A stretch of 45,354 nucleotides of DNA from Patescibacteria group bacterium. Lineage in GTDB: Bacteria; Patescibacteriota; WWE3; JAUXAW01; JAYEID01. Below are positions 6,903 through 27,982 of the stretch, piece by piece. The notes under the pieces are model-generated. The model searched no databases. It saw nothing but the letters and a program-made list of their open reading frames with translations, and was not told where the DNA came from. Within the stretch, counting starts at the first letter, position 1, and every line of letters begins with the position of its first letter. Where the stretch lies: contig JAYEID010000013.1 in NCBI GenBank assembly GCA_034659915.1, forward strand, positions 138,917 to 184,270, written 5' to 3'. The translations under genes and the position numbers were made by a program.

Positions 6903-7018
6903 TAGACCTCCGAGGTCTATTAGCCCTTTTCTTATAATCAAAGGTTAGCAATAAAATTATTCCTGTTTTTTTCGATTCTTAAGGCTTTTGTTATAGCCTT
7001 TTAGACCTTAGAGGTCTA
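6903..7018. repeat. Pair of REP-B palindromes
   Basis: TAGACCTCCGAGGTCTA (6903-6919) is an odd palindrome with one unpaired central base. A second, slightly diverged copy, TAGACCTTAGAGGTCTA, lies at 7002-7018; the centres are 99 bp apart. The same palindrome flanks the RAYT gene at 27.2-27.9 kb, so these are distant members of that family. A short hairpin (AAGGCT...AGCCTT, near 6980-7000) followed by T lies between them. Confidence 0.8.
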
Positions 7019-14363: not shown

Positions 14364-16337
14364 ATGTGCGGAATTATTGCCTATAACGGAAAAAACCAAG
14401 CCTTACCCATTTTGATGGCAGGATTAAAAAGGCTTGAATACCGTGGTTACGATAGTGCGGGTGTTGGTGTGGTTAGTGAAGAGGGGATAAGCGTAGTAAA
14501 AAGGGAAGGAGAGGTTTCTCTTTTAGAAAAAGAATTGAAAACTTCCGATACTCAGGGTTCGTTGGGTATTGCCCACACCCGGTGGGCAACACACGGTGAA
14601 CCAAACCACGGGAATGCACACCCGCATCTTGGTTGTGAGGGAAAGATTGCTATTGTGCACAACGGGATTGTTGAGAATTATAAAGCACTGAGAAAAATGC
14701 TTATTGATAAAGGTCACGAGTTTAGGTCTAAAACAGATAGCGAAGTATTGGTTCATTTGATTGAGAATTTTTTATATAGAGAAAAGTCCCGTCCTTCCGG
14801 GTACCCAAGGGAAAATCCGCGGGGTTTGCGGATGCAATCCCCGGGGGTTGGGGAATTGGGCAGGGAGAAGTTAGAGCAGGCAGTACGTTCTACTCTAAAA
14901 TGCGTGGAGGGAACATTTGGTTTAGCTGTTATCTTTGCAGAGAGCAATAAAATAATTGCTGCTCGGCGTGGCTCACCGCTGGTGGTTGGCATTGGTGATG
15001 GAGAAATGTTTGTGGCCTCTGATGCTTCTGCACTTATGGAGCATACCAAGAAAGTTGTTTATCTAGACGAAAACGAACTGGCAGTGGTTACAAAAGACAG
15101 TTATCGAGTTAGTGACCTTGAAGGTAATTGTGTTGGAAAAGAGGTTAAGGAGATTCGGTGGTCTTTGGAGCAAATTGAGAAGGGCGGTTACAAGTATTTT
15201 ATGCAGAAAGAGATTTTTGAGCAGCCAGAGGTGGTACGAAATAATCTTCGCGGGCGGTTGAAGAGCCGCGAGATTAAGCTAAGTGTTGATGTTGACACTT
15301 CTAGGCTAAGGAAAATTGTTATTACTGCTTGCGGTACAAGCTGGCATGCGGCTTTAATTGGAAAATATTTGTTGGAGGATCTTTGCAGGGTTCCAGTAGA
15401 AGTAGATTACGCTTCTGAACTTCGTTATCGCGAACCAATTATTTCTAAGGATTCTCTTTTAATTGCGATTTCCCAATCGGGGGAAACTGCAGATACACTG
15501 GCAGCACTTCGTGGGGCAAAAAGGAGGGGCGCGCAGACTTTAGGTATTGTAAACGTTGTTGGCTCTACCATTGCTAGGGAAGTGGATTCGGGTATTTATC
15601 TGCACGCCGGACCGGAAATTGGGGTGGCCAGCACCAAAGCTTTTACTACTGAGCTTTCCAGTCTGATTCTCCTTGCGTTGTATTTGAGGAATAATTACAT
15701 GGGCACACCGCCGCAGGAAAAACCTCCGGAATTGGGTCTGCAGAAACCCCGGAGGTTGGGGAATGCGGCGGCCAGTATTAGGAAGTCGCCAGGTTTTAAG
15801 AAACTGTGCAAAGAGCTCTCCTCCATCCCCTTAAAAATGGAGACTGTATTGGAATACACCAAACCAGTCATGGAAGTAGCTGAACGGTTCGAGGATGCTC
15901 ATGATTTCCTTTACCTCGCACGCGGTATTAATTTTCCAATTGCCTTAGAAGGTGCGCTTAAACTTAAGGAACTTTCTTATGCTCATGCTGAGGGTTATCC
16001 AGCGGGTGAGATGAAACACGGTCCCATTGCTTTGATTGAGGAGGGAACACCGGTTGTTTTTATTGCTACTACTTCAAAAACATTAGACAAAACAATTAGC
16101 AACATGGAAGAGGTTCGCGCGCGTGGAGGAGAATTAATTGCTGTAGTGGATGAGGAGTCGGAGGGAGAAGTGGGTGACCTTGCTCAACATAAATTTATAG
16201 TTCCTAAAACTCCAGAGGTCCTTTCCCCACTCCTGACCGTAATTCCCCTGCAACTTCTCTCCTATTATATTGCGGATCTAAGAGGGTTAAATGTAGATAA
16301 ACCCCGCAACCTTGCTAAATCAGTGACCGTAGAGTAA
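14364..16337 (+). CDS. glmS: Glutamine-fructose-6-phosphate aminotransferase (isomerizing) with two repeat-encoded insertions
   Basis: 657 aa against about 600-610 for the family. Makes glucosamine-6-phosphate for peptidoglycan and surface sugars. Cys2 (MCGIIAYNG) is the glutaminase nucleophile; HTRWATHGEPNHGNAHPH, CGTSWHAALIGKY, SQSGETADTLAALR, EIGVASTKAFTTEL, and a C-terminal SIS domain with EGYPAGEMKHGPIALI ending in NLAKSVTVE complete it. The excess length comes largely from two composite palindromic elements read in frame: residues about 147-166 in the glutaminase domain and about 449-470 in the linker between the SIS domains. Both positions are expected surface loops, so activity is probably kept. 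It starts 9 bp after the aminotransferase. Confidence 0.95.
   Translation: MCGIIAYNGKNQALPILMAGLKRLEYRGYDSAGVGVVSEEGISVVKREGEVSLLEKELKTSDTQGSLGIAHTRWATHGEPNHGNAHPHLGCEGKIAIVHNGIVENYKALRKMLIDKGHEFRSKTDSEVLVHLIENFLYREKSRPSGYPRENPRGLRMQSPGVGELGREKLEQAVRSTLKCVEGTFGLAVIFAESNKIIAARRGSPLVVGIGDGEMFVASDASALMEHTKKVVYLDENELAVVTKDSYRVSDLEGNCVGKEVKEIRWSLEQIEKGGYKYFMQKEIFEQPEVVRNNLRGRLKSREIKLSVDVDTSRLRKIVITACGTSWHAALIGKYLLEDLCRVPVEVDYASELRYREPIISKDSLLIAISQSGETADTLAALRGAKRRGAQTLGIVNVVGSTIAREVDSGIYLHAGPEIGVASTKAFTTELSSLILLALYLRNNYMGTPPQEKPPELGLQKPRRLGNAAASIRKSPGFKKLCKELSSIPLKMETVLEYTKPVMEVAERFEDAHDFLYLARGINFPIALEGALKLKELSYAHAEGYPAGEMKHGPIALIEEGTPVVFIATTSKTLDKTISNMEEVRARGGELIAVVDEESEGEVGDLAQHKFIVPKTPEVLSPLLTVIPLQLLSYYIADLRGLNVDKPRNLAKSVTVE
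14804..14860 (+). repeat. Composite palindromic element inside glmS, copy 1 (degenerate)
   Basis: 57 bp, exactly 19 codons. Arms CCCAA/TTGGG, boxes GGGAAAA and TTGGGGAA, and an imperfect inner stem around a loop containing TTTGCGGATGCAA, which matches the loop TTTCTGCGGATCCAA of the copy at 40169. Encodes a Gly/Pro/Arg-rich loop in GlmS. Confidence 0.75.
15708..15771 (+). repeat. Composite palindromic element inside glmS, copy 2
   Basis: Arms CCGCCGCA (15708-15715) / TGCGGCGG (15764-15771), boxes GGAAAAA (15716-15722) and TTGGGGAA (15756-15763), inner stem CCTCCGG/CCGGAGG. The apical loop is in the opposite orientation to that of the copies at 26904 and 40169. Arms are identical to those at 38017-38080. 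Confidence 0.92.
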
Positions 16338-16418
16338 ATTTTAAGCCCCCGGGGCTTAAAATTGGGTAGAAACCTCTTAATGGTAGTTTGGACCTTTCTA
16401 AGCCCCGGGGGCTTAGAA
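16338..16418. repeat. REP-A doublet (REPIN) downstream of RAYT-1
   Basis: Two odd palindromes with core AAGCCCC-N-GGGGCTT: 16338-16362 (12-bp arms, central C) and 16396-16418 (11-bp arms, central G), centres 57 bp apart and in inverted relation. Two GTAG tetranucleotides (16366 and 16383) lie between them; GTAG next to a hairpin is the site used by the E. coli REP transposase. Confidence 0.9.
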
Positions 16419-16437
16419 GCCTTACTTAGGAGTTTGG

Positions 16438-17136
16438 TTACTCTAGGGTGAGGTTTTCGATGCCTAGTTTGGGGTTACCTCCTAATTTAGCTTCCACGAA
16501 TTCTTTGTATTTTTCTGAACCGCCAAGAAGCTTTAGTCCCCATTTGACTTCTTTGGGATCCAAAATGAAATTACTGGTTTCTAGAAGATAAGGATCGATC
16601 CAATAGCGGTAGGAAGAATAGGGGTAGTCCTCCGGTTTTAGGGTTCCATTTTTGTTGATCTGGTTGGATAAAGGTGCGTTTAAGTGAATATATCTTGTTA
16701 CCTGTAATACAGCCTGTTCGTTTGGAATTTCCTTAGATTTGTAGCGTCCTTGAAATAGACCACCTACCCGGTCGTATTTATTATTGAAGTAATGTGTATA
16801 ACTATTGCATAAATCAGCCATAAAAGTTTGGACTCCTTTTTTCTTGTTTGGTTTTAACGAGAAGTGGAAGTGATTTTTAATCAGCGAATAAGAAAGGAAT
16901 CGGACGCGCTGTGCTTTGGCGTCTCGTGGATTTGCCGAAAGATAAAGCTCTCTCGCTTTTTGGGATAGCCCGTTGAATTGAGCAAATGAAATGTTTTGTT
17001 CGTATCGATAGTAATCAACCGTTTGTAGGAATCTTTGGTAGTCACGGGGGCATGTAAAAATATTTCGTTTCTCCACACCACGATTGTAAATGTGATATGG
17101 AAGATCAACGCTAAATTGGCGGGGCTTTGTGACCAT
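16438..17136 (-). CDS. REP-associated tyrosine transposase RAYT-1 (Y1/HUH, IS200-like fold)
   Basis: 232 aa from ATG 17136; this start gives MVTKPRQFSVDLPYHIYNRG, collinear with RAYT-2 (MATKPRAFDTNQYFHIYNCG) and exactly the same length. An earlier ATG at 17208 would add 24 non-matching residues. The HUH motif is NHFHFSL and the catalytic tyrosine lies in DLCNSYTHYFNNKYDRVGG, followed by LFQGRYKSKEI and YIHLNAP. RAYTs nick single-stranded REP hairpins and are domesticated relatives of IS200/IS605 TnpA. The gene is bracketed by two REP-A doublets with equal spacing, so its cognate site is probably AAGCCCCGGGGGCTT. Confidence 0.9.
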   Translation of the reverse strand: MVTKPRQFSVDLPYHIYNRGVEKRNIFTCPRDYQRFLQTVDYYRYEQNISFAQFNGLSQKARELYLSANPRDAKAQRVRFLSYSLIKNHFHFSLKPNKKKGVQTFMADLCNSYTHYFNNKYDRVGGLFQGRYKSKEIPNEQAVLQVTRYIHLNAPLSNQINKNGTLKPEDYPYSSYRYWIDPYLLETSNFILDPKEVKWGLKLLGGSEKYKEFVEAKLGGNPKLGIENLTLE

Positions 17137-17217
17137 AGTTGTTTTTTGGACCTTGCTTTGAGCTAGCTTACCTGGCTCGATTTTATCTGTTTGGTGTTGT
17201 GGTGTCAACCTACTTTT

Positions 17218-17293
17218 TAAGCCCCGCGGGCTTAGAAGTAGTTGGAATAGCCGTAGTGCAGAGCTTTACAGTTCTAAGCCCCGGGGGCTTAGA
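17218..17293. repeat. REP-A doublet (REPIN) upstream of RAYT-1
   Basis: TAAGCCCCGCGGGCTTA (17218-17234) and a 21-bp copy with core AAGCCCCGGGGGCTT (17273-17293); centres 57 bp apart, the same as in the downstream doublet. GTAG occurs at 17238 and 17253 between them. Confidence 0.88.
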
Positions 17294-17343
17294 GTTCCTT
17301 AGAGTTTTTAGAGTTGGGGGTTAGAATTTGTTGAGTTTTGCTG

Positions 17344-17358
17344 TACCTTAACAAGGTA
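17344..17358. promoter_or_regulatory. Operator-like inverted repeat
   Basis: TACCTT-AAC-AAGGTA is a perfect 15-bp inverted repeat, nine bases upstream of a TATATT box (17368-17373). It could be a repressor site for the gene at 17439. A clear -35 hexamer is lacking. Confidence 0.35.
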
Positions 17359-17438
17359 ATGTGGTAGTATATTTTCTGCTGCGAGTACTGCCCTCTTGTA
17401 ATTTCCAGAGAAAAAAATTGAGAGAAAGGAGAGCTAAA

Positions 17439-18239
17439 ATGTCGTACAAGTCTCGGCGGTTAGGGGCGGTCCCTTATGTTCCGCTACCCTCAGTGGAAAT
17501 GCTGTTGGAAAGCTTACTTTCGTCACGCATTGTGGGTGAGAAGATGGAGGAATTGGAAGAAGAAGTTGCTATTCTTTTACCAGCTTTTGTTGCAGAGAGT
17601 CTGAGCAGTTTTGTATCTGCTACCCACAAATATCTGATTGGGGAGATAATCGACTCCTTGAAGAGTTTGGTGGTTTATTACGAAACACAGGAGGAGGCAA
17701 CTCCTGTTGTTTTTGAAAGCGATTTGAAAAAGCTCCAACATGCGGGAGAAGTTTTGAAGGAAGTTGTTCAGGTGTTGGAAGCAAGTGGGGCGGAAGAAGA
17801 AGTACAGTATGAGCTTTCAATGCTAGCAGAGCTTTTGGAATCTCAAGAACGTGGGAAAGGACTCTTGATGGTTTTGGAGACTCTGGAGGCTTTGCAAAGC
17901 TTGTCGAATGATTTGCAGGATGCTATTTCCTGTTATGAATATATTATGGATAACTGGTGGCAGGAATATGAGGAGTGGCAGGAAAGAATTGAGGCCAGAG
18001 CAGAATCAGAAGTGGAGGAAAGGATCGAAAGCCGGGTGGATTTAGAAGCGACAAAGAAGGCTAAGGAGATTTTACACGAAGATATAGAAAGTATTGTAGA
18101 CGAGGTGATTCGCATCTTTGCAGAAGAGGGCTTGCTGTCGGAAAGTTACAATTCTTTTTCCGACCTCCCACCTCTCTTGAAGGCTACTATTGTACGTGTG
18201 GTAGTAAATCCTGTACAGGAGAAACGCTGGGGTTGGTAA
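17439..18239 (+). CDS. Coiled-coil, Glu-rich cytoplasmic protein of unknown function
   Basis: 266 aa from ATG 17439, chosen because AAAGGAGAG lies 7 nt upstream; the frame is open further up but without a ribosome site. Almost wholly helical and acidic (EEWQERIEARAESEVEERIESR), with predicted coiled coils in the middle and C-terminal thirds and no membrane segment. The N-terminus is basic and Pro-containing (MSYKSRRLGAVPYVPLP). I recognise no family. It precedes the M50 protease gene by 88 bp on the same strand. Confidence 0.7.
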   Translation: MSYKSRRLGAVPYVPLPSVEMLLESLLSSRIVGEKMEELEEEVAILLPAFVAESLSSFVSATHKYLIGEIIDSLKSLVVYYETQEEATPVVFESDLKKLQHAGEVLKEVVQVLEASGAEEEVQYELSMLAELLESQERGKGLLMVLETLEALQSLSNDLQDAISCYEYIMDNWWQEYEEWQERIEARAESEVEERIESRVDLEATKKAKEILHEDIESIVDEVIRIFAEEGLLSESYNSFSDLPPLLKATIVRVVVNPVQEKRWGW

Positions 18240-18327
18240 TAACCTTATTTTGACAAACAGCGGCCCTGCGTGAGTTACTACAGAATTTTGAGGTTAAATC
18301 AAACAGAAATAGAAAGGAGAAAAACAG

Positions 18328-19038
18328 ATGCGCACTTTAATTTGGTATTTGGTTTCCGTTGGTCTGTTGGGAATTGTTTTGGCAATTCACGAGGCAGGTC
18401 ACTTTGCTGTTCATAAATTGGTGGGTATGCCCGTGCGGGGTCTATGGGTTGGGCTACCTTTGGGAGATTTGCGGTTGACTTTCCGGATCAAATCTCTTCC
18501 AGTGCACATTACTCCGCTGTTGTTCGGTGCGGGAATAGATGTTCGGGAGAAGATTTGGTGGAAGAAGCCTTATTGGAAACGGGTGCTAATTCTTTTGTAC
18601 GGACCTGCCTTTAATTTTATTGCTGTGTTTTTGCTTTGCGTGTTGTTTCCGCATCTTGGCGGTTTGAAATTGGGCGCAGCAGCAGTATGGGCAGGGTTAA
18701 CTGCACCGTGGCAAATGGTTTCTATGTTTCGTTCTGGAGATATTGCGTTCTCGGACGTTTCCGGACCGGTAGGAGTAGTTGAACAAGGTGTACGTTGTTT
18801 GCAGACCGATCCTTTACTTGGCGCCTTTCTTTGGTTTGTCCTCCTCTCGGTCTCTTTGGGTGGGGTTAATTTGCTCCCTTTACCTGCCTTGGATGGGGGG
18901 CAGGTGGTAGTATCGGTATTGGAAAAGTGGGGACTGCCTGTGAGGTGGGCAAAGGCTTTGACCAAAATGTTCTTTGTTTTCCTCTTGGCGGTTTTAGTCT
19001 TGCTCACAGTTAAAGACTTTGTGCAGTTAGTTACTTAG
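18328..19038 (+). CDS. Site-2-protease-type (M50) membrane metalloprotease, short form
   Basis: 236 aa. ATG with GGAG 8 nt upstream. Zinc motif HEAGH at 21-25 in the first membrane helix and the second metal-site motif NLLPLPALDGG at 181-191, as in RseP/SpoIVFB. No PDZ domain is present between them, so it is shorter than RseP (about 450 aa). At least four membrane segments. Intramembrane cleavage of an anti-sigma factor or signal peptide remnant is the family role; no anti-sigma gene is adjacent, so the substrate is unknown. Confidence 0.85.
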   Translation: MRTLIWYLVSVGLLGIVLAIHEAGHFAVHKLVGMPVRGLWVGLPLGDLRLTFRIKSLPVHITPLLFGAGIDVREKIWWKKPYWKRVLILLYGPAFNFIAVFLLCVLFPHLGGLKLGAAAVWAGLTAPWQMVSMFRSGDIAFSDVSGPVGVVEQGVRCLQTDPLLGAFLWFVLLSVSLGGVNLLPLPALDGGQVVVSVLEKWGLPVRWAKALTKMFFVFLLAVLVLLTVKDFVQLVT

Positions 19039-19085
19039 ATATTGGAAAACTGGATAGCCGGTTTTCCAATATCCTTCTTTTTTTA
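19038..19085 (+). terminator. Strong intrinsic terminator
   Basis: GATATTGGAAAAC (19038-19050) pairs perfectly with GTTTTCCAATATC (19061-19073), a 13-bp stem with a 10-nt loop, followed by CTTCTTTTTTT. It begins at the last base of the protease stop codon. Confidence 0.92.
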
Positions 19086-19150
19086 AATCCCTTCTTAGTT
19101 ACTTAGAGGCTTGTAATGAAAATAAAAGCTCTCCCGGTTTTCTTGTTATC

Positions 19151-19642
19151 ATGTGGTTCTTTGATATTATTAGGAGGATGAAATTTAAAAGGACTTTGAA
19201 AAACTGGGGACCAGTTCTTTTTTGGGCTCTGCTTATTTTTATTGGTTCTTCTCTGCCCGCTCCTGAGATTTCAAAGGTTGGTTGGGTATCTTTTGCTGTT
19301 ACTTCTTTTGTTCATTTTGTTGAGTTTTCCATCCTTTCTTTTTTAATTTTCCGTGCTTTGTATTTTGCGGAACGTGGTCCTGAAGAAATTTTGGAACAAG
19401 TAAAAAGAACAGTAAAAACTCTTCGCTTTGGGTTAAAGCCATTTTTTTTCCGTTTATTTTGGGAACTTTTTGTGCCCAAGAAGTTGTTAGCGGCTATTTT
19501 GATTACTGTTATTTACGCAGCTGCAGATGAGTTACATCAATGCTTTGTCCCCACCCGTGTTTGTAGTTTTTGGGATTTCTTCTTTGACAGCTTTGGTGCT
19601 GTTGTGGGTGCTGTTCTTGCTAAGTTGATTCTATCTTTTTAA
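19151..19642 (+). CDS. VanZ-like integral membrane protein
   Basis: 163 aa from ATG 19151, or 154 aa from ATG 19178 (MKFKRTLKNWGPVLFWALLI), which looks more natural although AGGAGG directly abuts that codon. Four membrane segments and the VanZ hallmark: DELHQCFVPTRVCSFWDFFFDSFG near the C-terminus; SSLPAPE after the first helix also fits. VanZ-family proteins are linked to low-level teicoplanin resistance and envelope functions; the reaction is unknown. Stand-alone gene after a strong terminator. Confidence 0.85.
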   Translation: MWFFDIIRRMKFKRTLKNWGPVLFWALLIFIGSSLPAPEISKVGWVSFAVTSFVHFVEFSILSFLIFRALYFAERGPEEILEQVKRTVKTLRFGLKPFFFRLFWELFVPKKLLAAILITVIYAAADELHQCFVPTRVCSFWDFFFDSFGAVVGAVLAKLILSF

Positions 19643-19729
19643 TCAAGTTTTTTAAAAGTTTTATTTTTGATCTTTGCTGGTGTCTACGGTGTTCTTCTAA
19701 GTTCTAGGGTTGGGTTTTTATTGAAGAAC

Positions 19730-19786
19730 AAAAAAAAGCCCCCGAAGCTCTTGGGATCAATGATTCGATCCAAAAGCCTCGAGGGC
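19730..19786 (-). terminator. Intrinsic terminator of the large secreted-protein gene
   Basis: An imperfect stem-loop at 19738-19786 (GCCC/GGGC, CGA/TCG, TTGGGATC/GATCCAA) is followed on the minus strand by eight T (A-tract 19730-19737), just downstream of the minus-strand stop at 19824. Confidence 0.8.
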
Positions 19787-19823
19787 GATAGTCTCTCCTT
19801 TCGGAGTTTAAATTGTTACTGAT

Positions 19824-21800
19824 CTACTCCAGTGGGAAATTCTGAATTCCAGCCCACTGGCCGAGCCACCAATAACAGGTTCCAATATCGGTAAGCAAAC
19901 CCGTTCCGTTTAGGTGCTCTGCGTAAGAACGGGTTTCTTTGGCACCGGTTAGCCGAGTTAGGCTGTTGCCCTGGCTTGTAACAGTTACCGTTACCCCTTC
20001 CGCGAGTGTGGCTCCAACTCCCATGCGGTGACCACGGATGTGGCCGTTGTACACAGCCCAACCGTAGGCGGGCAGGTCTAATCTTCCGTCGCCGGTAAAG
20101 TCGCTACCCTCGTACAGAGGGTTGCACCTTCCGGCTACGCAGACCTCACCGATTAGCTCTCCTGGGTAGGGATAAAGGCTTCCCAGACTGGCGTCTGGTT
20201 CCTTTATTTCTTCCTCCTCCAGAACCAAAGTATTTCTCAGCCAGCCGCAGTAGACTCCTTGGCCGCGCTGTACGCGGGGGCAAACCAGACCGGTGTTGTT
20301 TTTCATGGGGGTACCCTCTACCACTTCGACTTCCCAGCTTGCGTTGTAAGTTTCGGCAAGCCAGTCGAAGGGGCTTTGGATAAAATATCCGTTGATGCTC
20401 AAGGGTGGGAATTCTGCGGCCAGCGCACCGAAACTCTTGCCGACGTTGTCATTCCACACAGTGGCTCCAGCTACCCCGTCGTAGCCGTCTGCAGAGAAGT
20501 ACTCGCTCCTATAGATCGCTTCTCCGTCCGGACTGGTCAGGTGAGCTTTAAAGGCGGCCCCTTGGACCCCCACCTCTTCTTCCGGTCCGCCGTAAGCGGC
20601 GCAAGTTTTGTCGAATAGCGCGCCTTCTACGGTGCGGAGGTCGGAGAGGTGATAGATACGTGCGATCCAGCGCATTCTCCAATCGTTGCTTTCTTCGTAG
20701 TGGTTTACTGTGGCAGCGATAGTGCCGCAAGGTGCCACTACAGTCTTCCGAAGGTAGAGGTCACCTCGGATGTGATCCCTCTCCTCCTCTTCTTTTCCAA
20801 AGGAGAATATGCAGCCCGAGCTGCTCCACTCTCCGTCACCAGTCTTGTATTGAATCTGGTATTTGGTGTCAGGGTGGAAGCGTGCGGTGAAGCAGGCTTT
20901 TCCGTCAGTGACCTGAACTTCGTCACCTACGGCTTCGCCTGTTGAGTAGATTACGAGTCGAGCTGTATCTCCCTCGCCGGTGGCGCAAGTTGTTATCTCG
21001 CGTCCCTCGGTAGGAAGCTCAGTTTTCGGAGCATCGACCGCGTAGCATGCTCCCGGCTCATAACCCTTCCATTCGGTCTTCTGCTCTGTATCGCAGAGAT
21101 AATCGGTATCATATGCGTCGTAGCGATACCGTTCGAGTTCCCGGTAGAAGTCACCCTGCACGGGGTCCCAGGTCCAGTCCTGGATAACTTTCCACTCGCT
21201 CCACTCAGTCATTTCTGTACAGAGTTGGTACCCTTGCCATTCCTTCTCTTGCTTCTTGTCGCAAAGGTAATCCTGATCGTACTTGTCATACCTCTCGTAC
21301 TTCAGGATTCGGTAGAAGTCCTGCGCGATGGGGTCCCACTGCCAGTCACCGGTTTCGACCAGTACCCACTCGGTCATCTCTGTGCAGAGTTCGTAAACAC
21401 ACTCCCCACAGATCTCGTACCAGGATATGTCTTTGCATTCTGGTCCTTTGTTGTCGTCTTCCCAGTTTTCTGCGACCCACCATTTACTGCCCTCGTAACC
21501 GATGGTAAAGCAGTCATTGGACTCTTGGTAGGTTTCGGTTCCCGCTTTTACGGTAACACTGGTTACCGCAACCGTTCCTGGGCAATTATCCCAATCCTCG
21601 GCGAGATCTCCGCTTGCTTCCTTGAAGGCGTCGGTGACGTCTACTTTGAAGCATTGCTCAGTATATATTTCGTTGTTTGTCTGCGAAGATACTGGCACCT
21701 TGGCTGGCTCGGCAGTTGCGGTTGCAATAGCAATCCCCGTTACTGTAAGCGTGAAGACTGCTAGAAATGCCACACTTCGGTAAATCCATCTGTTTTTCAC
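19824..21800 (-). CDS. Large secreted Cys/Trp-rich protein with a tandem internal repeat
   Basis: 658 aa. GTG start with GGAG about 7 nt upstream. Signal peptide 1-30 ending ATATAEPA. Residues 138-192 and 193-248 are a tandem duplication: each has LCTEMTEW, W-x-WDP, DFYR, ERY/RYR, D-x-DYLCD and EW-x-GY. About twenty cysteines spread over the chain suggest disulfides. The C-terminal part (GDGRLDLPAYGWAVYNGHIRGHRMG to the end) looks like a separate domain. No family recognised and no membrane anchor seen. The coding sequence is visibly richer in G+C than its neighbours, so recent transfer or expression-selected codon use is possible. It has its own promoter and terminator. Confidence 0.7.
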   Translation of the reverse strand: MKNRWIYRSVAFLAVFTLTVTGIAIATATAEPAKVPVSSQTNNEIYTEQCFKVDVTDAFKEASGDLAEDWDNCPGTVAVTSVTVKAGTETYQESNDCFTIGYEGSKWWVAENWEDDNKGPECKDISWYEICGECVYELCTEMTEWVLVETGDWQWDPIAQDFYRILKYERYDKYDQDYLCDKKQEKEWQGYQLCTEMTEWSEWKVIQDWTWDPVQGDFYRELERYRYDAYDTDYLCDTEQKTEWKGYEPGACYAVDAPKTELPTEGREITTCATGEGDTARLVIYSTGEAVGDEVQVTDGKACFTARFHPDTKYQIQYKTGDGEWSSSGCIFSFGKEEEERDHIRGDLYLRKTVVAPCGTIAATVNHYEESNDWRMRWIARIYHLSDLRTVEGALFDKTCAAYGGPEEEVGVQGAAFKAHLTSPDGEAIYRSEYFSADGYDGVAGATVWNDNVGKSFGALAAEFPPLSINGYFIQSPFDWLAETYNASWEVEVVEGTPMKNNTGLVCPRVQRGQGVYCGWLRNTLVLEEEEIKEPDASLGSLYPYPGELIGEVCVAGRCNPLYEGSDFTGDGRLDLPAYGWAVYNGHIRGHRMGVGATLAEGVTVTVTSQGNSLTRLTGAKETRSYAEHLNGTGLLTDIGTCYWWLGQWAGIQNFPLE

Positions 21801-22358
21801 TTTGCCTCTCCTTTTTCTGTTCTTGCTTTTACTTTACGGAATTATGTTTCAGTCTTAAGCTTCTTTACAGCTCCACCTCCTTTTCTTCTCTCCATTAGAT
21901 CCAGCTTGTTAAAGTGCGAGAGTTGTTGAAACTCTTTTGAAAGCGCGCTTCTATAGTACCTTAAAACGCTGAAGAAGTCAACTTTATAGGGTTAATTTTC
22001 AGATTTAGTATTTGTGTGTTTTAGTGTAGGATACCTGACAACTAAAGAGACTAAATTAAAGAACTAAAATAGAGCAGTTTCTTTTTGCTCTCCTTCCTAT
22101 AAGATGGTAAGATTAAAGCTAGGTTAACTGCACTTTAATTTTTGAATTTAAATAAGGTTAGAACACTGGAGCCATGGGAGGTTGGTAATTTCGGCTATTT
22201 TGGTTGCGCCGGCGAGTGCTAAATGGATGGCTTATTTGGTAGCAGTTGTGGTGGCTTGGAAATATCCGTTGACACGCGATCAGCACCGAGAAGTTCAAAG
22301 GGAAGTGCGCAAGCAAAGACACAAAACAGAGCAGGGTTCAGGAAACAGGAGGTGGGTA
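21801..22358. other. Intergenic region between divergent genes
   Basis: About 560 bp without a convincing gene. It holds the minus-strand promoter at 21953-21981 and, in the transcribed leader of the secreted-protein gene, a small hairpin (AGAGTT/AACTCT near 21919-21935). Another short hairpin, AGAGCA/TGCTCT, lies near 22072-22092. From 22182 an in-frame extension of the acetyltransferase frame would encode a hydrophobic segment (WMAYLVAVVVAW), which could be a tiny membrane ORF but lacks a properly spaced ribosome site. Confidence 0.5.
21953..21981 (-). promoter_or_regulatory. Promoter of the secreted-protein gene
   Basis: On the minus strand TTGACT (21981-21976), a 17-bp spacer and TACTAT (21958-21953). 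It predicts a leader of about 145 nt before the GTG at 21800, unlike the near-leaderless core genes. Confidence 0.65.
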
Positions 22359-23501
22359 ATGAAAGTTCAGAGAGTAGAAACTGAGAAGGATGTTTGGAAG
22401 TTTATTCAAGTCCAATTTGAGATTTACAGGGGAAACCCGTATTGGATTCCTCCCATGATTTCAGATGTGGAGTTTGTGTTGGATCGGGAAAACAATCCGT
22501 TCTATAGTCATTCCCAAGCTGAGTTCTTTATGGCAAAAGAGCAGGGGCAGGTCTTGGGAAGGGTAGCTGTGCTTGACCACAGCCTTTATAACAAATACCA
22601 CCAAAGCAAAACAGCTTTTTTCTACTTATTTGAAGCTGTGGATAATTTGCAGGTGGCAAGGCTACTTTTTGCAGCTGCAATTGATTGGGCTAGGCAGCAT
22701 AGTCTAAGGAAGATGATTGGTCCCTTGGGTATGCATGCTGGGGATGGACACGGAGTTTTAGTAAGAGGGTTCCGCCGCCGACCGGGGATGGGAATTTCCT
22801 GGAACTTTCCTTATTATGAGGGCTTGCTTGAGCAAGCTGGGTTTGAAAAGCTGGTGGATAGCTTTTCTGCTCAGGTTTCAATAAGAGATGCACTTGAGAA
22901 AAACCGAGCACGTATTCAACGCATTCGACAGGTTGCCAAGAAGGTGAAAAAACACCGCGGTTTTAGGATTATGACTTTCGACAGCAAACAGGAAGTTCGA
23001 AAGCAGGCGACTCGCCTGGTGCCGGAGTTGAAGAGAGTCTACAACAAATCCTTTGCCGGTCTCCCTCTCTTTTGGCCCATGGATGAAGAAGGGATGCAAA
23101 GGGTTGTTGACCGCTTTTTAGCTATTGCTGATCCGCGTCTAATTAGGTTGGTGATGAAAGGTGCGGATGTGGTGGGGTTTGTCCTTACCTATCCAAATAT
23201 AGTACCGGGGATCCGGCGAGCCGGGGGTAAGCTGTGGCCGTTGGGTTGGCTGTGGATTATGCTTGAGCGCTACCGCTCTAACTGGATGGATCTTAATGGA
23301 ATTGGAATTCTTCCAAAGTACCAGGGCTTGGGTGCTGCTATTGTGTTGTACGCTGAGCTGGCAAAGATTTTGGAAGAAAGCCGGTTTGAGTGGGCAGTGG
23401 CGAATCAGGTTTCTGAGAAAAATGTCGAGAACTTACGCGAGGTGCAGGCATTTGGTGTAGAGTTTGATCGTGTTCACAGGGTGTACCAGCGCCTGCTCTG
23501 A
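22359..23501 (+). CDS. GNAT-like acyltransferase (YghO-type family)
   Basis: 380 aa from ATG 22359, selected because AGGAGGTG stands 4-5 nt upstream and the protein then begins MKVQRVETEKDVWKFIQVQF, the normal family start. The frame is open to 22182, but that extension is not family-like. Characteristic segments: RGNPYWIPPMISDVEFVLDRENNPFYSHSQAEFFMA, GRVAVLDH, GPLGMHAGDGHGVLVRGFRRRPGMGISWN and a second GNAT-like half with IGILPKYQGLGAAIVLYAELA. Two acetyltransferase-like halves are likely. Family members are mostly uncharacterised; substrate unknown. Confidence 0.75.
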   Translation: MKVQRVETEKDVWKFIQVQFEIYRGNPYWIPPMISDVEFVLDRENNPFYSHSQAEFFMAKEQGQVLGRVAVLDHSLYNKYHQSKTAFFYLFEAVDNLQVARLLFAAAIDWARQHSLRKMIGPLGMHAGDGHGVLVRGFRRRPGMGISWNFPYYEGLLEQAGFEKLVDSFSAQVSIRDALEKNRARIQRIRQVAKKVKKHRGFRIMTFDSKQEVRKQATRLVPELKRVYNKSFAGLPLFWPMDEEGMQRVVDRFLAIADPRLIRLVMKGADVVGFVLTYPNIVPGIRRAGGKLWPLGWLWIMLERYRSNWMDLNGIGILPKYQGLGAAIVLYAELAKILEESRFEWAVANQVSEKNVENLREVQAFGVEFDRVHRVYQRLL

Positions 23502-23591
23502 ATTAGTGAGGGGGATATAGGTGGATCAAAGAACCAAGTTTGATGTTAAAGCACTTGGTGGTCAAGAGTACTAAATTAAGGCGGTGAAAAA

Positions 23592-23987
23592 ATGTTGGAG
23601 CAAGAGAAGCTGGTTTTGGTTCGGGAGCAGGATGTGGGATGTGCTCAGACTTTTAAGTTCTTGTTGCAAAGCGCGGGTTACTCGGTTCGAACTGTTCTGG
23701 ACTCACAGGGGTTTCCTGCTGATTTGGCAGAGACGCCCGTAGCGGTAATCACCTTTTGGGGAACCACTCCTTTAGGGGAGGAGCACCCCTTGTACGGATT
23801 ATCTTCGCGGGCGTTCTGTTCAGCATGCATTTCTAGGGAAATTCCTTTTGTCATTGTTACGCGCTGGCCGCACGCTGTGCCAGAACATTTTGCAGAAAGA
23901 GCGGCTGCTGTATTGGAGAAGGTAGTTGATATCCAGGAGCTTTGCCAAATAATCTCGAATCTTTCTTCGGAAGCAGATTCGGTTTAG
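23592..23987 (+). CDS. Second pseudo-receiver-like small protein
   Basis: 131 aa. GGCGGTGA precedes the ATG. Alternating beta/alpha layout of a receiver domain: EKLVLVREQDVGCAQTFKFL, AGYSVRTVLDSQG, TPVAVITFWGTTP, EIPFVIVTRWP, AAAVLEKVVDIQELCQIISNL. The last segment matches the receiver pattern GA-x-x-x-L-x-KP-x-x-x-x-EL, with K retained and P lost. The Asp phosphorylation site is replaced by hydrophobic or Trp residues. Similar in plan to the gene at 9987-10367. Function unknown. Confidence 0.55.
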   Translation: MLEQEKLVLVREQDVGCAQTFKFLLQSAGYSVRTVLDSQGFPADLAETPVAVITFWGTTPLGEEHPLYGLSSRAFCSACISREIPFVIVTRWPHAVPEHFAERAAAVLEKVVDIQELCQIISNLSSEADSV

Positions 23988-23998
23988 CTTTGTTCATT

Positions 23999-24048
23999 AC
24001 CCTTCGGGTTAGAAGTTTCAGAAGTTTATGTTCTGAAGCCCGAAGGGT
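23999..24048. repeat. REP-like inverted pair
   Basis: CCCTTCGGG (24000-24008) and CCCGAAGGG (24039-24047) bracket an inner TTCAGAA/TTCTGAA stem. Each half is itself nearly palindromic, as in the REP doublets. It directly follows the pseudo-receiver gene and may also terminate it, but no T-run follows. Confidence 0.65.
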
Positions 24049-24050
24049 TT

Positions 24051-24081
24051 ATTCATGATTTATGTTTCATAAATCATGAAT
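24051..24081. repeat. Perfect 14-bp inverted repeat with 3-nt spacer
   Basis: ATTCATGATTTATG (24051-24064), TTT, CATAAATCATGAAT (24068-24081). AT-rich, fully symmetric and without a T-run. It could be a protein-binding site or a hairpin. Confidence 0.8.
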
Positions 24082-24160
24082 CGTATTCTTGCTTCTTCTT
24101 TACCAAAACCTCCAAGGATTAGACAAGCTAAACCTTGCAGGGTTCTCTGGCTCAGTTGCA

Positions 24161-24219
24161 TATCTACCGTATATCTATCGTTTATCCACCGTATTTCTTA
24201 TCTTCTATCCTCTATGCTC
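24161..24219. repeat. Tandem 11-mers followed by 7-mers
   Basis: TATCTACCGTA, TATCTATCGTT and TATCCACCGTA (11-mers, 24161-24193), then TATCTTC, TATCCTC and TATGCTC (7-mers, 24199-24219). Both share the TATCnnC theme. Confidence 0.7.
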
Positions 24220-24319
24220 TTCTTTTCTCTTGTTACGAATTAGGAGTCTCCTGTTCCTTCTTTTTCCCATTTGCATAAATTTGCAGTATTAAATTTGCAT
24301 CTATTCGCTATTACAGGTC

Positions 24320-24447
24320 TTGACAACCTCATATAGTTATTATAAGTTAAAACTAGGTTACAGATAACCTATATGAAAATTTCCTACCAGAAAAATTTAA
24401 AAACATTTCTTGGGCCAGCTCAGTTGAGCTGGCTTTTGCTTTTTTTA
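24320..24447 (+). ncRNA. Candidate small RNA or attenuated leader upstream of the PQQ-propeller gene
   Basis: TTGACA (24320-24325) and TATAAG (24341-24346; 15-bp spacer, short) would start a transcript near 24353. It contains a perfect hairpin AGGTTA-CAGA-TAACCT (24355-24370) and ends at an intrinsic terminator, GCCAGCTCA/TGAGCTGGC (24414-24433) with TTTTGCTTTTTTT. The product is about 95 nt with no ORF. It lies 70 bp before the 24518 gene, so it may be a stand-alone small RNA or a transcription attenuator for that gene. Confidence 0.45.
24414..24447 (+). terminator. Intrinsic terminator without a preceding gene
   Basis: 9-bp perfect stem GCCAGCTCA/TGAGCTGGC followed by 14 nt of nearly pure T. 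No protein gene ends within 400 bp upstream on this strand, which is why a small RNA or attenuator is suspected. Confidence 0.88.
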
Positions 24448-24517
24448 AATTGATTGCTGCTGCACCTTGAAAATCTAAAAAATTAAGCACCGATAGTTAG
24501 ATACAAAAAGGAGGTTT

Positions 24518-25945
24518 GTGGTGAAGAAGGAAAAAGTTGGTTGGGTTGTTTTGGTTGTGGTCACTGTGGTTGGTTTGGCGTGTTTTAGTTGCGCTTCTTT
24601 AGTAGTGTTCCAATTAACAGGGGAGCGCAAAGTTGAAACAGTTTACACTAGCGTACCGGAAGAGACAGCTGTTCGCGTGGTTGGTGGTACTCTTACACCC
24701 ACTGTGGAAGTTACAGGTATCCCCGAGTTTTTGTGGGATGATCCTATGGCGCAGGAACCGTGGGTTGATGGGGAAGCTGCTTACCTGGTTGATGCTGAGG
24801 GTGTTGTTGGTGCCCTACACTTGCCTAGCCGAACACGGATTTGGGCTTGGGAGTACTTTGAGAGAGCAGAAAGAATCTTTGCTCAGAATAGGGATAAGCT
24901 TTTTGTTCTAAGATCAGATAACCGAGTGTATGCTTTGGACAAAAAGACAGGGGAAACAGCTTGGAAGCTTCGTTTTTCCTCGGATGACGTGCTAGAGGAT
25001 TTTGAATTGGATAACGAGAGGTTATACCTCACAGTTACTAGTAAGAACAGAGGGCTCATGGGTGGTTATGATCATTTCCTGAGAGCCTATGATATTGGTA
25101 GTGGAGAGGAACTGTGGCTTGATGTTTTAAGAAGTCCCACATCTTACCTAGTTTCTGATAGTTATGTGTTTGCTACCGATCCTGAAGGAGAAGCTTCTGT
25201 TTTGGATGCAGAAAGAGGTGGGGTTCAAGCAACAGTTCCGGGGGAGGCTAGGTGGTACTGTTTGGGGGTTACTAATGGAGTTGCTTTTTTTGTTCCAGCT
25301 TCTAAGGGAATTGGGGGGTTTGACTACCAAGTAGGCGAGGTTCTTTGGACGCGGGAGCAGTCATATGTGAGAACAGAGGCAATTCCTCAAGAGGGTAAGG
25401 TTTTAATCAGAGATGGACACGGTACCTACGGATTGCTAGAAGCTAGGACTGGCAAGCTTCTCTGGGATACAGATGAGCAAAGAAATGTAGAGTATGTTGG
25501 TTTTTTGGAAGACCTTGTCTTTTTGGTGAAGTCGGATATTGGTGAGACTGGAGCAGTGGATTTGGAAAGCGGGCAAGTGCGGTGGGTCAACGATGAAATG
25601 TTAATTGATTGGCCAATTGCTACTACCCAGCACGGCTTGCTTCTTGCTCGTCAGAGACCGGGTTATCTCTACCTTGTAGATCCGAAAACAGGAAAGTTTG
25701 TGTGGCGGTTTGCACACGATCTTGAGGATAATCAGACGTATATTTCGGATGCGCTTCTTATTGAGGACGAGGTCTTGGTTGCGGCAGGCAGTTACCTTTA
25801 CCTCTTGGACTTGGAAACTGGCGCAACAAAGTGGAAGATGAAGCTGGGGAGATTTTGGGAACTGCGAAGTTTGCATAGGTCTCCCGACTTGATTGTAATG
25901 ACAGCTGACGATTACATGGCTGTTCTTCACTATACTCCAGAGTAA
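24518..25945 (+). CDS. Membrane-anchored PQQ-type beta-propeller repeat protein
   Basis: 475 aa. GTG start with AAGGAGG 6 nt upstream. One N-terminal membrane helix (about 8-32), then a Thr/Val-rich linker and a propeller of repeated blades: VYALDKKTGETAWKLRF, LRAYDIGSGEELWLDV, TYGLLEARTGKLLWDTD, GAVDLESGQVRWVND, LYLVDPKTGKFVWRFAHD and LYLLDLETGATKWKMKL. The A-x-D-x-x-TG-x-x-x-W pattern is that of PQQ/BamB-like repeats; no catalytic residues are evident, so a binding or scaffold role outside the membrane is likelier than a dehydrogenase. It is followed after 1-13 bp by a second membrane-anchored protein, probably its partner. Confidence 0.85.
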   Translation: MVKKEKVGWVVLVVVTVVGLACFSCASLVVFQLTGERKVETVYTSVPEETAVRVVGGTLTPTVEVTGIPEFLWDDPMAQEPWVDGEAAYLVDAEGVVGALHLPSRTRIWAWEYFERAERIFAQNRDKLFVLRSDNRVYALDKKTGETAWKLRFSSDDVLEDFELDNERLYLTVTSKNRGLMGGYDHFLRAYDIGSGEELWLDVLRSPTSYLVSDSYVFATDPEGEASVLDAERGGVQATVPGEARWYCLGVTNGVAFFVPASKGIGGFDYQVGEVLWTREQSYVRTEAIPQEGKVLIRDGHGTYGLLEARTGKLLWDTDEQRNVEYVGFLEDLVFLVKSDIGETGAVDLESGQVRWVNDEMLIDWPIATTQHGLLLARQRPGYLYLVDPKTGKFVWRFAHDLEDNQTYISDALLIEDEVLVAAGSYLYLLDLETGATKWKMKLGRFWELRSLHRSPDLIVMTADDYMAVLHYTPE

Positions 25946-25958
25946 GATGAGGAGGTCT

Positions 25959-26594
25959 ATGAATAAGTATAAGATTTTGCTTGTGGTTTTGGTGGGGATC
26001 CTGCTGGTTGTGTGTGTGCGAGCAGGGTCTCCACCTTCTGCTAGATATTTTCTTAACCCGAAGGAATTGAAATACCTTCGCACGTTAAGAGAGGTGCGCG
26101 CAAATTACGGGTTTTTCAATGCAGCACTACAGCTGAAGTTACACGCAGCAACTACAGACTGGCGGGAGTCAGATTGGCAACAAGAGGTAGAAGCTGCGCT
26201 TCTTGGTTGGGAAGTAACTGGCAAATATTTACGAAGCTTGGATCCACCGGAAAACTACGAAGCACTTCATGCAAGATTGGTGGAGATAAGCTATAACTAC
26301 GAAAAATGCGCTAAGCTTACTAGGCAAGCTTTTGGGCTCGAATCGCTCTATATAGAAAGAGTAGATGTTCAAAAGTTAGGAAAAGCTTCTCAAGTAGCGG
26401 AAGAAATACAAAGCTCTTGGCAAGAGCTAGATCCCTACTTGGAAAGTCTTTTTCGACAATTGCCGGGAAAGCCAAGGCAAGATGATTTTGAAAAGAATAA
26501 GCTTTTAGCGTCTGAAGCAATACCCCTTGGGTTGTTCTTGCCCAGAACCCAAGGGTTTTTTTTATCTTCTAGTTTTTTATTATTTTGTGCTTGA
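25959..26594 (+). CDS. Membrane-anchored or secreted helical protein of unknown function
   Basis: 211 aa if started at ATG 25959, which has AGGAGG only 3 nt before it; ATG 25947 (four residues more) is the alternative. The N-terminal hydrophobic segment MNKYKILLVVLVGILLVVCV is a signal or anchor; the rest is helical (LKYLRTLREVRANYGFFNAA, EEIQSSWQELDPYLESLF). The last 33 or so residues run through a perfect intrinsic terminator (26524-26563) and end at a TGA overlapping the next -35 box. A stop in another frame lies just before the terminator, so the original 3' end may have been shifted by a recent frameshift. Operon partner of the propeller gene. Confidence 0.65.
   Translation: MNKYKILLVVLVGILLVVCVRAGSPPSARYFLNPKELKYLRTLREVRANYGFFNAALQLKLHAATTDWRESDWQQEVEAALLGWEVTGKYLRSLDPPENYEALHARLVEISYNYEKCAKLTRQAFGLESLYIERVDVQKLGKASQVAEEIQSSWQELDPYLESLFRQLPGKPRQDDFEKNKLLASEAIPLGLFLPRTQGFFLSSSFLLFCA
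26524..26563 (+). terminator. Intrinsic terminator inside the annotated 3' end of the upstream ORF
   Basis: CCCTTGGG (26524-26531) pairs with CCCAAGGG (26548-26555), extended by TTCT/AGAA, then eight T. Its position inside the open frame is odd. Confidence 0.85.
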
Positions 26595-26784
26595 CAATCA
26601 GGTTCTATTTTGCTTATATAGATTTACAAAACGGCTTTGTTTTACTTTGTATGAGCCTGCCCCGGAAGGGGCTCTGATTTTTATGTCTAGCCTTTTATGG
26701 CATATAATTAATTTAACTAAATATTATCTTGAGGCTTCTATTGCCGAAAGATGTTCTTTAGCCACGCTATAGCGTGGCTTTTTT
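26591..26784 (+). ncRNA. Candidate small RNA: promoter, internal hairpin, terminator
   Basis: TTGACA (26591-26596), 17 bp, TTATAT (26614-26619; TATATA with 18 bp) is one of the best promoter matches in the window. The transcript, from about 26626, has a hairpin CCCC-GGAA-GGGG flanked by GAG/CTC (26653-26674) and ends at a perfect 20-bp palindrome, AGCCACGCTATAGCGTGGCT (26760-26779), with a T-run. About 155 nt, no credible ORF. I do not recognise it as 6S, SRP or RNase P RNA. Confidence 0.5.
26760..26784 (+). terminator. Intrinsic terminator of the candidate small RNA
   Basis: Perfect palindrome AGCCACGCTATAGCGTGGCT followed by six T. Confidence 0.85.
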
Positions 26785-26903
26785 GATGGGATCTTAGTGA
26801 TTCTCGACTTTAGGTCGGAAGAGCTTAGAAAGCATCAATCCTGAGCGAGCGAAGTGTTTCGAAGGATAAGAGGCCCCAGCCGAGGAATTTCTATTTTTGG
26901 TGT
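26785..26903. other. Gene-free stretch with an inverted repeat
   Basis: Contains ATCCTGAGCGAGCGAAGTG...CGAAGGAT (about 26840-26866), a short inverted repeat of the kind often dispersed in bacterial genomes, followed by GAGGCCCCAGCCGAGG. No gene seen. Confidence 0.4.
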
Positions 26904-26971
26904 GCCTGCGCGATCCCCCAACCTCCGGGGTTGGATCCGCAGAAACCCCGGAGGTTTTTCCTTGCGCAGGC
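26904..26971 (-). repeat. Composite palindromic element, intergenic copy
   Basis: Arms GCCTGCGC (26904-26911) / GCGCAGGC (26964-26971). In element sense (minus strand): GGAAAAA, CCTCCGG, a loop with TTTCTGCGGATCCAA, CCGGAGG, TTGGGGGA. Inner part almost identical to the copy at 40169-40238 although the arms are different. Confidence 0.93.
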
Positions 26972-27085
26972 CGCGTCGAAGGGTAGTTTGCAACCTAAGA
27001 ATCCTTTAGGGTTGATCTGAATTTGCGTTAATTCGCGTGACGCAAAGGATCTTATATCCTTATTGATTTGCGTCAATTAGTTAAT

Positions 27086-27194
27086 TAGACCTCCGAGGTA
27101 TATTAACCCTATCCCCAAAGCGTTTCTAAGTACATCTCGTAAGCACCTTACAAAAAAACCATAACCACGGCGTGGATAGACCTCTGAGGTCTAT
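27086..27194. repeat. REP-B pair downstream of RAYT-2
   Basis: A diverged copy at 27086-27102 and a 19-bp copy ATAGACCTC-T-GAGGTCTAT at 27176-27194, ending 3 bp from the RAYT-2 stop. Centres are 91 bp apart. A small CCACGGCGTGG hairpin lies between. Confidence 0.85.
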
Positions 27195-27197
27195 TCT

Positions 27198-27896
27198 CTA
27201 TTCTATAACTAAGCGTTCAATTCCTAGTTTCGGGTTTTTGTTTAGCTGGGCTTCGACAAATTGTTCATACCCTTTGGGTCCTTGGACCTGGTTCCTGAAA
27301 TTTATAATTTCAGAATAGGCTAAGTCTGGTCCAGAAGTGTCTTGAAATGTTGGAGAGATCCAAACAGGGTAGGAGGAATACAAATAATCTTCTGGGTTAA
27401 GATAAACCTCCGGGTTGGCTTTTTTTGATACGGAAGGGTTGAGGTGAACATATCTAGTTACGTTGAGTATACTCTGTTCGTCAGGTAGCTCCTTGGCTTT
27501 GTAAGTTCCCTGAAAAAGACTTCCTAATCTGTCATATTTTGTGTTGAAGAATCGGGAATGACTGTTAGAAATATCTGAAATAAACCGGGTGATCCCGTCT
27601 TTTTTGGCGGGTTTAAGAACAAAGTGGTAGTGGTTAGGCATTAGACAGTAGGCTATTAGTTTAACTCTGAGGCGTTCAATACTTCTTGGGTTGATTTGTT
27701 CGTAGACCTGTTTTGCTTTGGGTTCGAGGCTTTTATATTGTGCAAAACAAGTTCTCTGCTTGTAAAGATAAAAGTTGATGGCGTCCAAGAAGCGCTGGAA
27801 ATCACTTTCTTCTTCAAAAATATTGCGTTTCTCCACCCCACAGTTATAAATGTGGAAGTATTGGTTGGTGTCAAAGGCTCTTGGTTTTGTAGCCAC
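27198..27896 (-). CDS. REP-associated tyrosine transposase RAYT-2 (Y1/HUH, IS200-like fold)
   Basis: 232 aa, GTG start, no Shine-Dalgarno visible. HUH motif MPNHYHFVLKP, catalytic tyrosine region DISNSHSRFFNTKYDRLGS, then LFQGTYKAKELPDEQSILN and YVHLNPS. The equivalent of RAYT-1's NSYTHYF reads NSHSRFF here, so the tyrosine nearest the active site is the one in NTKYDR; this is worth modelling. The C-terminus (FVEAQLNKNPKLGIERLVIE) matches RAYT-1 (FVEAKLGGNPKLGIENLTLE). Bracketed by REP-B palindromes, not REP-A, so the two RAYTs appear to have separate cognate repeats. Confidence 0.9.
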   Translation of the reverse strand: MATKPRAFDTNQYFHIYNCGVEKRNIFEEESDFQRFLDAINFYLYKQRTCFAQYKSLEPKAKQVYEQINPRSIERLRVKLIAYCLMPNHYHFVLKPAKKDGITRFISDISNSHSRFFNTKYDRLGSLFQGTYKAKELPDEQSILNVTRYVHLNPSVSKKANPEVYLNPEDYLYSSYPVWISPTFQDTSGPDLAYSEIINFRNQVQGPKGYEQFVEAQLNKNPKLGIERLVIE

Positions 27897-27940
27897 ACTT
27901 ATAGTTAATTTAACCTCTTAAGTTTTTAAGGTCAAGGTCC

Positions 27941-27982
27941 TTTTCTTAGACCTCCGAGGTTTTCTTAGACCTCCGAGGTCTA
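27941..27982. repeat. Tandem REP-B copies upstream of RAYT-2
   Basis: The 19-bp unit TTTTCTTAGACCTCCGAGG is directly repeated (27941-27959, 27960-27978); the second copy completes the full palindrome TAGACCTCCGAGGTCTA (27966-27982). It lies 45 bp from the RAYT-2 start. Confidence 0.88.

Follow-up and report, generated by a model that had tools for sequence, protein, structure and literature searches.

In a 45,354 nt stretch of a patescibacterial genome (the window: contig C13, positions 138917–184270; the genome comprises 806 kb in 26 contigs), two genes for REP-associated tyrosine transposases (RAYTs) were each found to be bracketed by a repetitive extragenic palindrome (REP) of its own, REP-A at RAYT-1 and REP-B at RAYT-2. 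The two proteins are best read as Y1 HUH nucleases of the RAYT/TnpAREP type with cognate hairpins and no GTAG guide. The reading as a whole, in which relatives of RAYT/TnpAREP diverge together with their own recognition palindromes and disperse hairpins, is considered highly probable.

Two transposase genes and their bracketing palindromes

The features of the two loci, together with a further REP-B doublet, are as follows.

16339–16361, no strand assigned: REP-A palindrome 1, outer member of the downstream doublet, core at 16343
16396–16418, no strand assigned: REP-A palindrome 2, inner member of the downstream doublet, core at 16400
16438–17136, minus strand: RAYT-1, Y1 HUH transposase, 232 aa (Y1_Tnp, PF01797; HUH H89/H91, Tyr149, Asn153; AlphaFold model)
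17180–17208, minus strand: promoter-like TTGACA-17-TAAAAT, starting 6 nt inside the upstream REP-A
17215–17237, no strand assigned: REP-A palindrome 3, inner member of the upstream doublet, core at 17219, one mismatch
17272–17294, no strand assigned: REP-A palindrome 4, outer member of the upstream doublet, core at 17276
27086–27102, no strand assigned: REP-B, downstream of RAYT-2, outer
27177–27193, no strand assigned: REP-B, downstream of RAYT-2, inner
27198–27896, minus strand: RAYT-2, Y1 HUH transposase, 232 aa, 49% identity with RAYT-1 (Y1_Tnp, PF01797)
27907–27935, minus strand: promoter-like TTGACC-17-TAAATT, 10 nt inside the upstream REP-B
27947–27963, no strand assigned: REP-B, upstream of RAYT-2, inner, two mismatches
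27966–27982, no strand assigned: REP-B, upstream of RAYT-2, outer
6903–7018, no strand assigned: REP-B doublet without a transposase nearby, sites at 6903 and 7002, 99-bp spacing

The original prediction, made from the sequence of the window, had placed RAYT-1 between two equally spaced REP-A doublets, and the palindromes were indeed 57 bp apart, centre to centre, on both sides. Their consensus is TTYTAAGCCCC[C/G]GGGGCTTARAA, and the core matched the window nine times compared with 0.18 times in dinucleotide shuffles. The open frame of RAYT-1 reaches an upstream TTG at 17208; based on the sequence, the start is most likely at 17136, because an end-to-end alignment with RAYT-2 then results. REP-B (TAGACCTCNGAGGTCTA) brackets RAYT-2 as had been claimed (sites at 27086, 27177, 27947 and 27966), the two flanking doublets being unequal at 19 bp and 91 bp. 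It matched the window 12 times, with sites counted on both strands, compared with 0.07 times in the shuffles. The pairing was also found to be private as stated, REP-A being absent at RAYT-2 and REP-B at RAYT-1. The doublet at 6903 and 7002, which was missing from the original list, lies approximately 10 nt past the stop codon of the open reading frame at 5532–6893.

Palindromes were then counted by pattern search of the genome, plus targeted stretches. REP-B occurred at 11 sites, with none for the reversed-pattern control. Seven of these were remote from RAYT-2, forming doublets of 99, 90 and 100 bp and one single site, and the majority of the seven were located close behind stop codons. A loose REP-A core matched 38 sites, but a 38-copy family was rejected since the contexts revealed that most matches belonged to a different, mainly in-gene palindromic element, described below; the matches outside REP-A comprised sites with A/T at the centre and a few others, with different flanks. 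The REP-A-specific pattern left five sites in the genome: the four at RAYT-1 and an intergenic one at C18:35406. The label 'REP family' is therefore apt for REP-B (7/11 sites remote) but hardly for REP-A (1/5 remote).

Protein class and the GTAG motif

Both RAYT-1 and RAYT-2 matched Y1_Tnp (PF01797). Catalytic residues and domains were analysed in an alignment set of 18 homologues, in which H89 and H91 of the HUH motif and Y149 and N153 of the class-2 Y---N motif were invariant. The class-2 signature reads YVHLNP in RAYT-2 and YIHLNA in RAYT-1, the latter having lost the proline. In the Pfam search all 18 homologues matched Y1_Tnp only, and a C-terminal helix-turn-helix (HTH) domain (Bac_DnaA_C, HTH_23, HTH_28) was detected in none of them. 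A search of the PDB with the single RAYT-1 sequence gave no match; with the family profile, E. coli TnpAREP (4er8) ranked first (E = 5e-5), ISDra2 and IS608 being weaker. The AlphaFold model of RAYT-1 (predicted local distance difference test score of 90.6) likewise had 4er8 TnpAREP as its best PDB fold (E = 1.9e-5), again with weaker matches to ISDra2 and IS608. The two proteins are sisters with 100/100 support, and their nearest relative is a Microgenomates protein.

GTAG tetranucleotides had been reported between the REP-A palindromes, and each of the two spacers (16362–16395 and 17238–17271) does contain two, all on the plus strand. Since only 0.84% of the 34-mers in the window hold at least two, their presence by chance is unlikely. 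However, their register differs between the spacers and none lies at a 5' hairpin foot: GTAG or GTGG was found at 0/8 REP-A feet. For REP-B, GTGG was present within 7 nt at 1/12 feet, and across all loci GTRG occurred within 6 nt of 2/102 feet, which is chance level (background 1.7% per foot). As a guide, GTAG was rejected on these foot counts. In E. coli TnpAREP, GTAG is read by W94, Q95, E100, H101 and R104 (PMC6006769); in the profile alignment to 4er8 this set was reduced to Q95, with E100, H101 and R104 replaced. The GTAG part of the analogy with gammaproteobacterial RAYT/REP is thus unsupported on both counts, the REP-A feet being without GTRG and the protein without E100, H101 and R104.

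Palindromes across the genome and its relatives

In total, 115 genomes were searched for homologues, and matches were obtained in 28, including the window's own genome; the scan of named genomes gave three relatives only, one of them from Microgenomates. The genome itself encodes six distantly related RAYT-like genes, of which the closest pair is approximately 52% identical. Each of the six has its own palindrome, present on both sides, and no two genes have the same one. For RAYT-3 it is AAGGACGGGTCTTGCGAGC, an imperfect palindrome in an inverted pair, followed by TATCTAGAGGCTGCCTCTAGATA for RAYT-4, CAAAGGTATTACCTTTG for RAYT-5 and CTAGATAAACGCATTGCGTTTATCTAG for RAYT-6. With strict patterns, each of these four had one to three sites away from its gene, and the reversed-pattern controls had none.

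The flanks of 62 homologous genes, nearly all from the same phylum as the window's bacterium, were compared next to those of mismatched pairs. The two flanks had a word of ≥12 nt in common for 41/62 homologues but for only 13/600 mismatched flank pairs. As a rule this word lay no further than 100 bp away, and in most cases it belonged to a palindrome. Equal doublet spacing on the two sides was also seen at other loci (23/23, 24/24 and 16/16). Palindrome similarity tracked protein identity (Mantel rho 0.275, p 0.001), and the closest protein pairs, at 79% and 76% identity, had nearly the same palindrome. Of the predicted one-to-one pairing with GTAG, the pairing was upheld, both here (6/6) and in the 41 homologues, while the GTAG part was not. 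Nor is the arrangement unusual for a genome resembling those of the candidate phyla radiation, as had been suggested; a gene plus a private palindrome was common among the relatives searched.

These data bear on an alternative in which REP-A and REP-B have no connection to the transposases and are terminators of transcription or hairpins at mRNA 3' ends. The location of most remote REP-B sites close behind stop codons would fit such a role. Against it, the same palindrome stands on both sides of every RAYT here, the upstream side included, the six genes have six different sequences, palindromes co-vary with the protein, and the REP-A stem is not followed by a T-run. A terminator origin is accordingly regarded as very improbable.

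The promoter-like sequences were examined in the same way. Of 40 cassettes, 15 had TTGAC on the inner side of the upstream palindrome, no more than 45 nt from it; for the three remaining flanks the numbers were 2, 3 and 2, and the background was 4.8%. In these cassettes at least, gene and promoter are therefore enclosed together by the palindromes. An internal promoter-like sequence and palindromes near both gene ends would also be expected of ordinary insertion sequences of the IS200/IS605 type, with the palindromes as element ends and the lone copies as remnants. Such elements share the Y1 transposase and the hairpins at both ends, and several loci have a directly oriented palindrome at each end, as IS200/IS605 elements do. 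The protein class differs, however, with the class-2 Y---N(P) signature and a fold nearest to TnpAREP rather than to the TnpA of IS608 or ISDra2. Moreover, near-identical copies as in a multicopy insertion sequence were not seen, the six genes being far apart (closest approximately 52%), and palindromes were found as doublets and away from any transposase gene. An IS200/IS605 origin is thus considered unlikely, though less so than terminators.

Dispersal was also seen in G048 and G071, two complete genomes of one genus, in which the palindrome TGACAAGGTCCGTCCTTGTCA gave 23 and 26 forward-strand matches, respectively, with up to three mismatches; the reversed-pattern control gave none. Among the matches were inverted doublets with a 39-bp spacing, clear in G048. 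At one orthologous pair of REPs (L096:4561 and L110:9788) the stem was the same and the loop inverted (TCCGT vs ACGGA), resembling a flip of the hairpin. At L102:1503 a REP lies within a gene; the orthologous position in L113 is occupied by another palindrome, in which the two arms of the stem have changed in a paired manner. The RAYT frame itself also contained copies of its cognate palindrome at several loci (L037, L054, L056, L062, L063, L067 and L075); such copies have been reported for subclass 2.4 (PMC6006769).

The in-gene element recovered by the loose REP-A core is a separate palindromic element of 55–60 bp, with the pattern GCCGCAGGAGAAGCCCC[AT]GGGGCTTCT...AGCCCC[AT]GGGGCT.GGGAATGCGGC. 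It brackets none of the six RAYTs. Its positions are as follows.

38015–38085 of the window: 55–60 bp element
40455–40515 of the window: 55–60 bp element
elsewhere, for example: L011:1120–1800, and L025:10091 and 12173

A search with the long pattern gave 18 sites here and no match in any of 114 relatives. At 24 of the 26 site clusters examined, the element was inside a long open frame, and its in-frame reading was nearly always AAGEAPGAS..PAPGAEECG or PHSPAPGAAAKEAPGASPAA; a 778-aa frame held three copies and a 1056-aa frame two. The element resembles the Rickettsia palindromic elements. A second element, with the palindrome AACCTCCGGGGTT/AACCCCGGAGGTT and outer flanks similar to those of the first, was observed at 15715–15764, 26913–26975 and 40176–40235 of the window; it is in frame in a glmS-like and a glycosyltransferase-like open reading frame and intergenic near RAYT-2. 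A third palindrome, ACCTGCCTGCCGGCAAGGCAGGT, was located between the two palindromes of the 55–60 bp element at L011:11834–11893, L012:1821–1880 and L016:2524–2583, and this nesting suggests the insertion of one element into another.

Relation to known systems and proposed mechanism

Several observations weigh against the RAYT/TnpAREP reading. The REP-A feet are without GTAG or GTGG, as noted above, and only one REP-A copy lies outside the RAYT-1 locus. Against the NCBIfam model NF047646 (REP_Tyr_transpos), the proteins scored 30.6 and 41.2 bits, under the 80-bit cut-off. For 21/62 homologues, some of them near contig ends, no shared 12-nt flanking word was found or the gene was set aside. Between G071 and G048, some REPs were at orthologous positions and others were not, and neither a clean empty site nor an insertion boundary was found.

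Known RAYT genes are flanked by GTAG REPs or, in the case of TIRYTs, by unrelated terminal repeats, with several repeat-specific pairs per genome (PMC3733652), and the family has been sorted into subclasses (PMC6006769). With the REPtrons of RAYT/TnpAREP described in these papers, the genes here share the HUH-Y1 core, the Y---N(P) motif, the 4er8-like fold and the cognate bracketing palindromes, as well as low copy number and low identity within a genome, several repeat-specific pairs and dispersed doublets. They differ in having no GTRG at the foot, in the loss of E100/H101/R104, in falling below the NCBIfam equivalog cut-off, and in palindromes that are often near-perfect with a 1-nt loop and, in this genome, have very few dispersed copies. 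TIRYTs and their TIRtrons (PMC3733652; mostly subclass 2.1 of PMC6006769) are likewise Y1 genes flanked by gene-specific inverted or self-complementary non-GTAG repeats, some of which form moderate dispersed families and dimers. The homologues here differ from these in the lack of a C-terminal HTH detectable with Pfam, and inspection of REP-A and REP-B by eye did not reveal the TIRYT consensus GGGGWSAS. REPINs (PMC3116915) also consist of two palindromes a short, constant distance apart, and in some families the pair is inverted, as with the 39-bp doublets of G048. By eye, however, the spacers of the two REP-A doublets were unlike each other, as were those of the REP-B doublets, and the copy numbers were far lower. 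The REP-A (57 bp) and REP-B (90–100 bp) doublets were too symmetric in their palindromes to be oriented as REPINs. Among the papers available to the literature search, none dealt with RAYTs in Patescibacteria. The genes in the window are best called a new branch of the known RAYT/REP system, and not a new kind of thing.

RAYT-1 and RAYT-2 most likely arose from a common ancestor and then diverged together with REP-A and REP-B. Each forms a cassette of approximately 0.8–1 kb, in which hairpins bound the gene and a promoter-like sequence close to the inner edge of the upstream palindrome. The bounding hairpins would most likely be bound and cleaved by the protein where the DNA is single-stranded, the lagging-strand template being one example. 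Movement or copying of the palindromes by the cognate protein, singly or as doublets, would then give rise to REP/REPIN-like families, very small for REP-A and modest for REP-B. The private pairs would, on this mechanism, reflect a one-to-one specificity in action.

Among transposases that spread tiny palindromes instead of themselves, RAYT/REP is the best studied, and the cases described are mostly GTAG-guided and mostly from proteobacteria. More tentatively, in a reading considered less likely than not, the data may point to a phylum-wide RAYT-like lineage without a GTAG guide that reads the hairpin stem and loop only, in which several orthogonal protein–palindrome pairs per genome (six here) exist as self-contained palindrome–promoter–gene–palindrome cassettes. 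If true, ultra-small bacteria would maintain several guide-less pairs per genome, from which the recognition code could be read by sequence co-variation, and they would offer a natural set of solutions to hairpin recognition by HUH nucleases.

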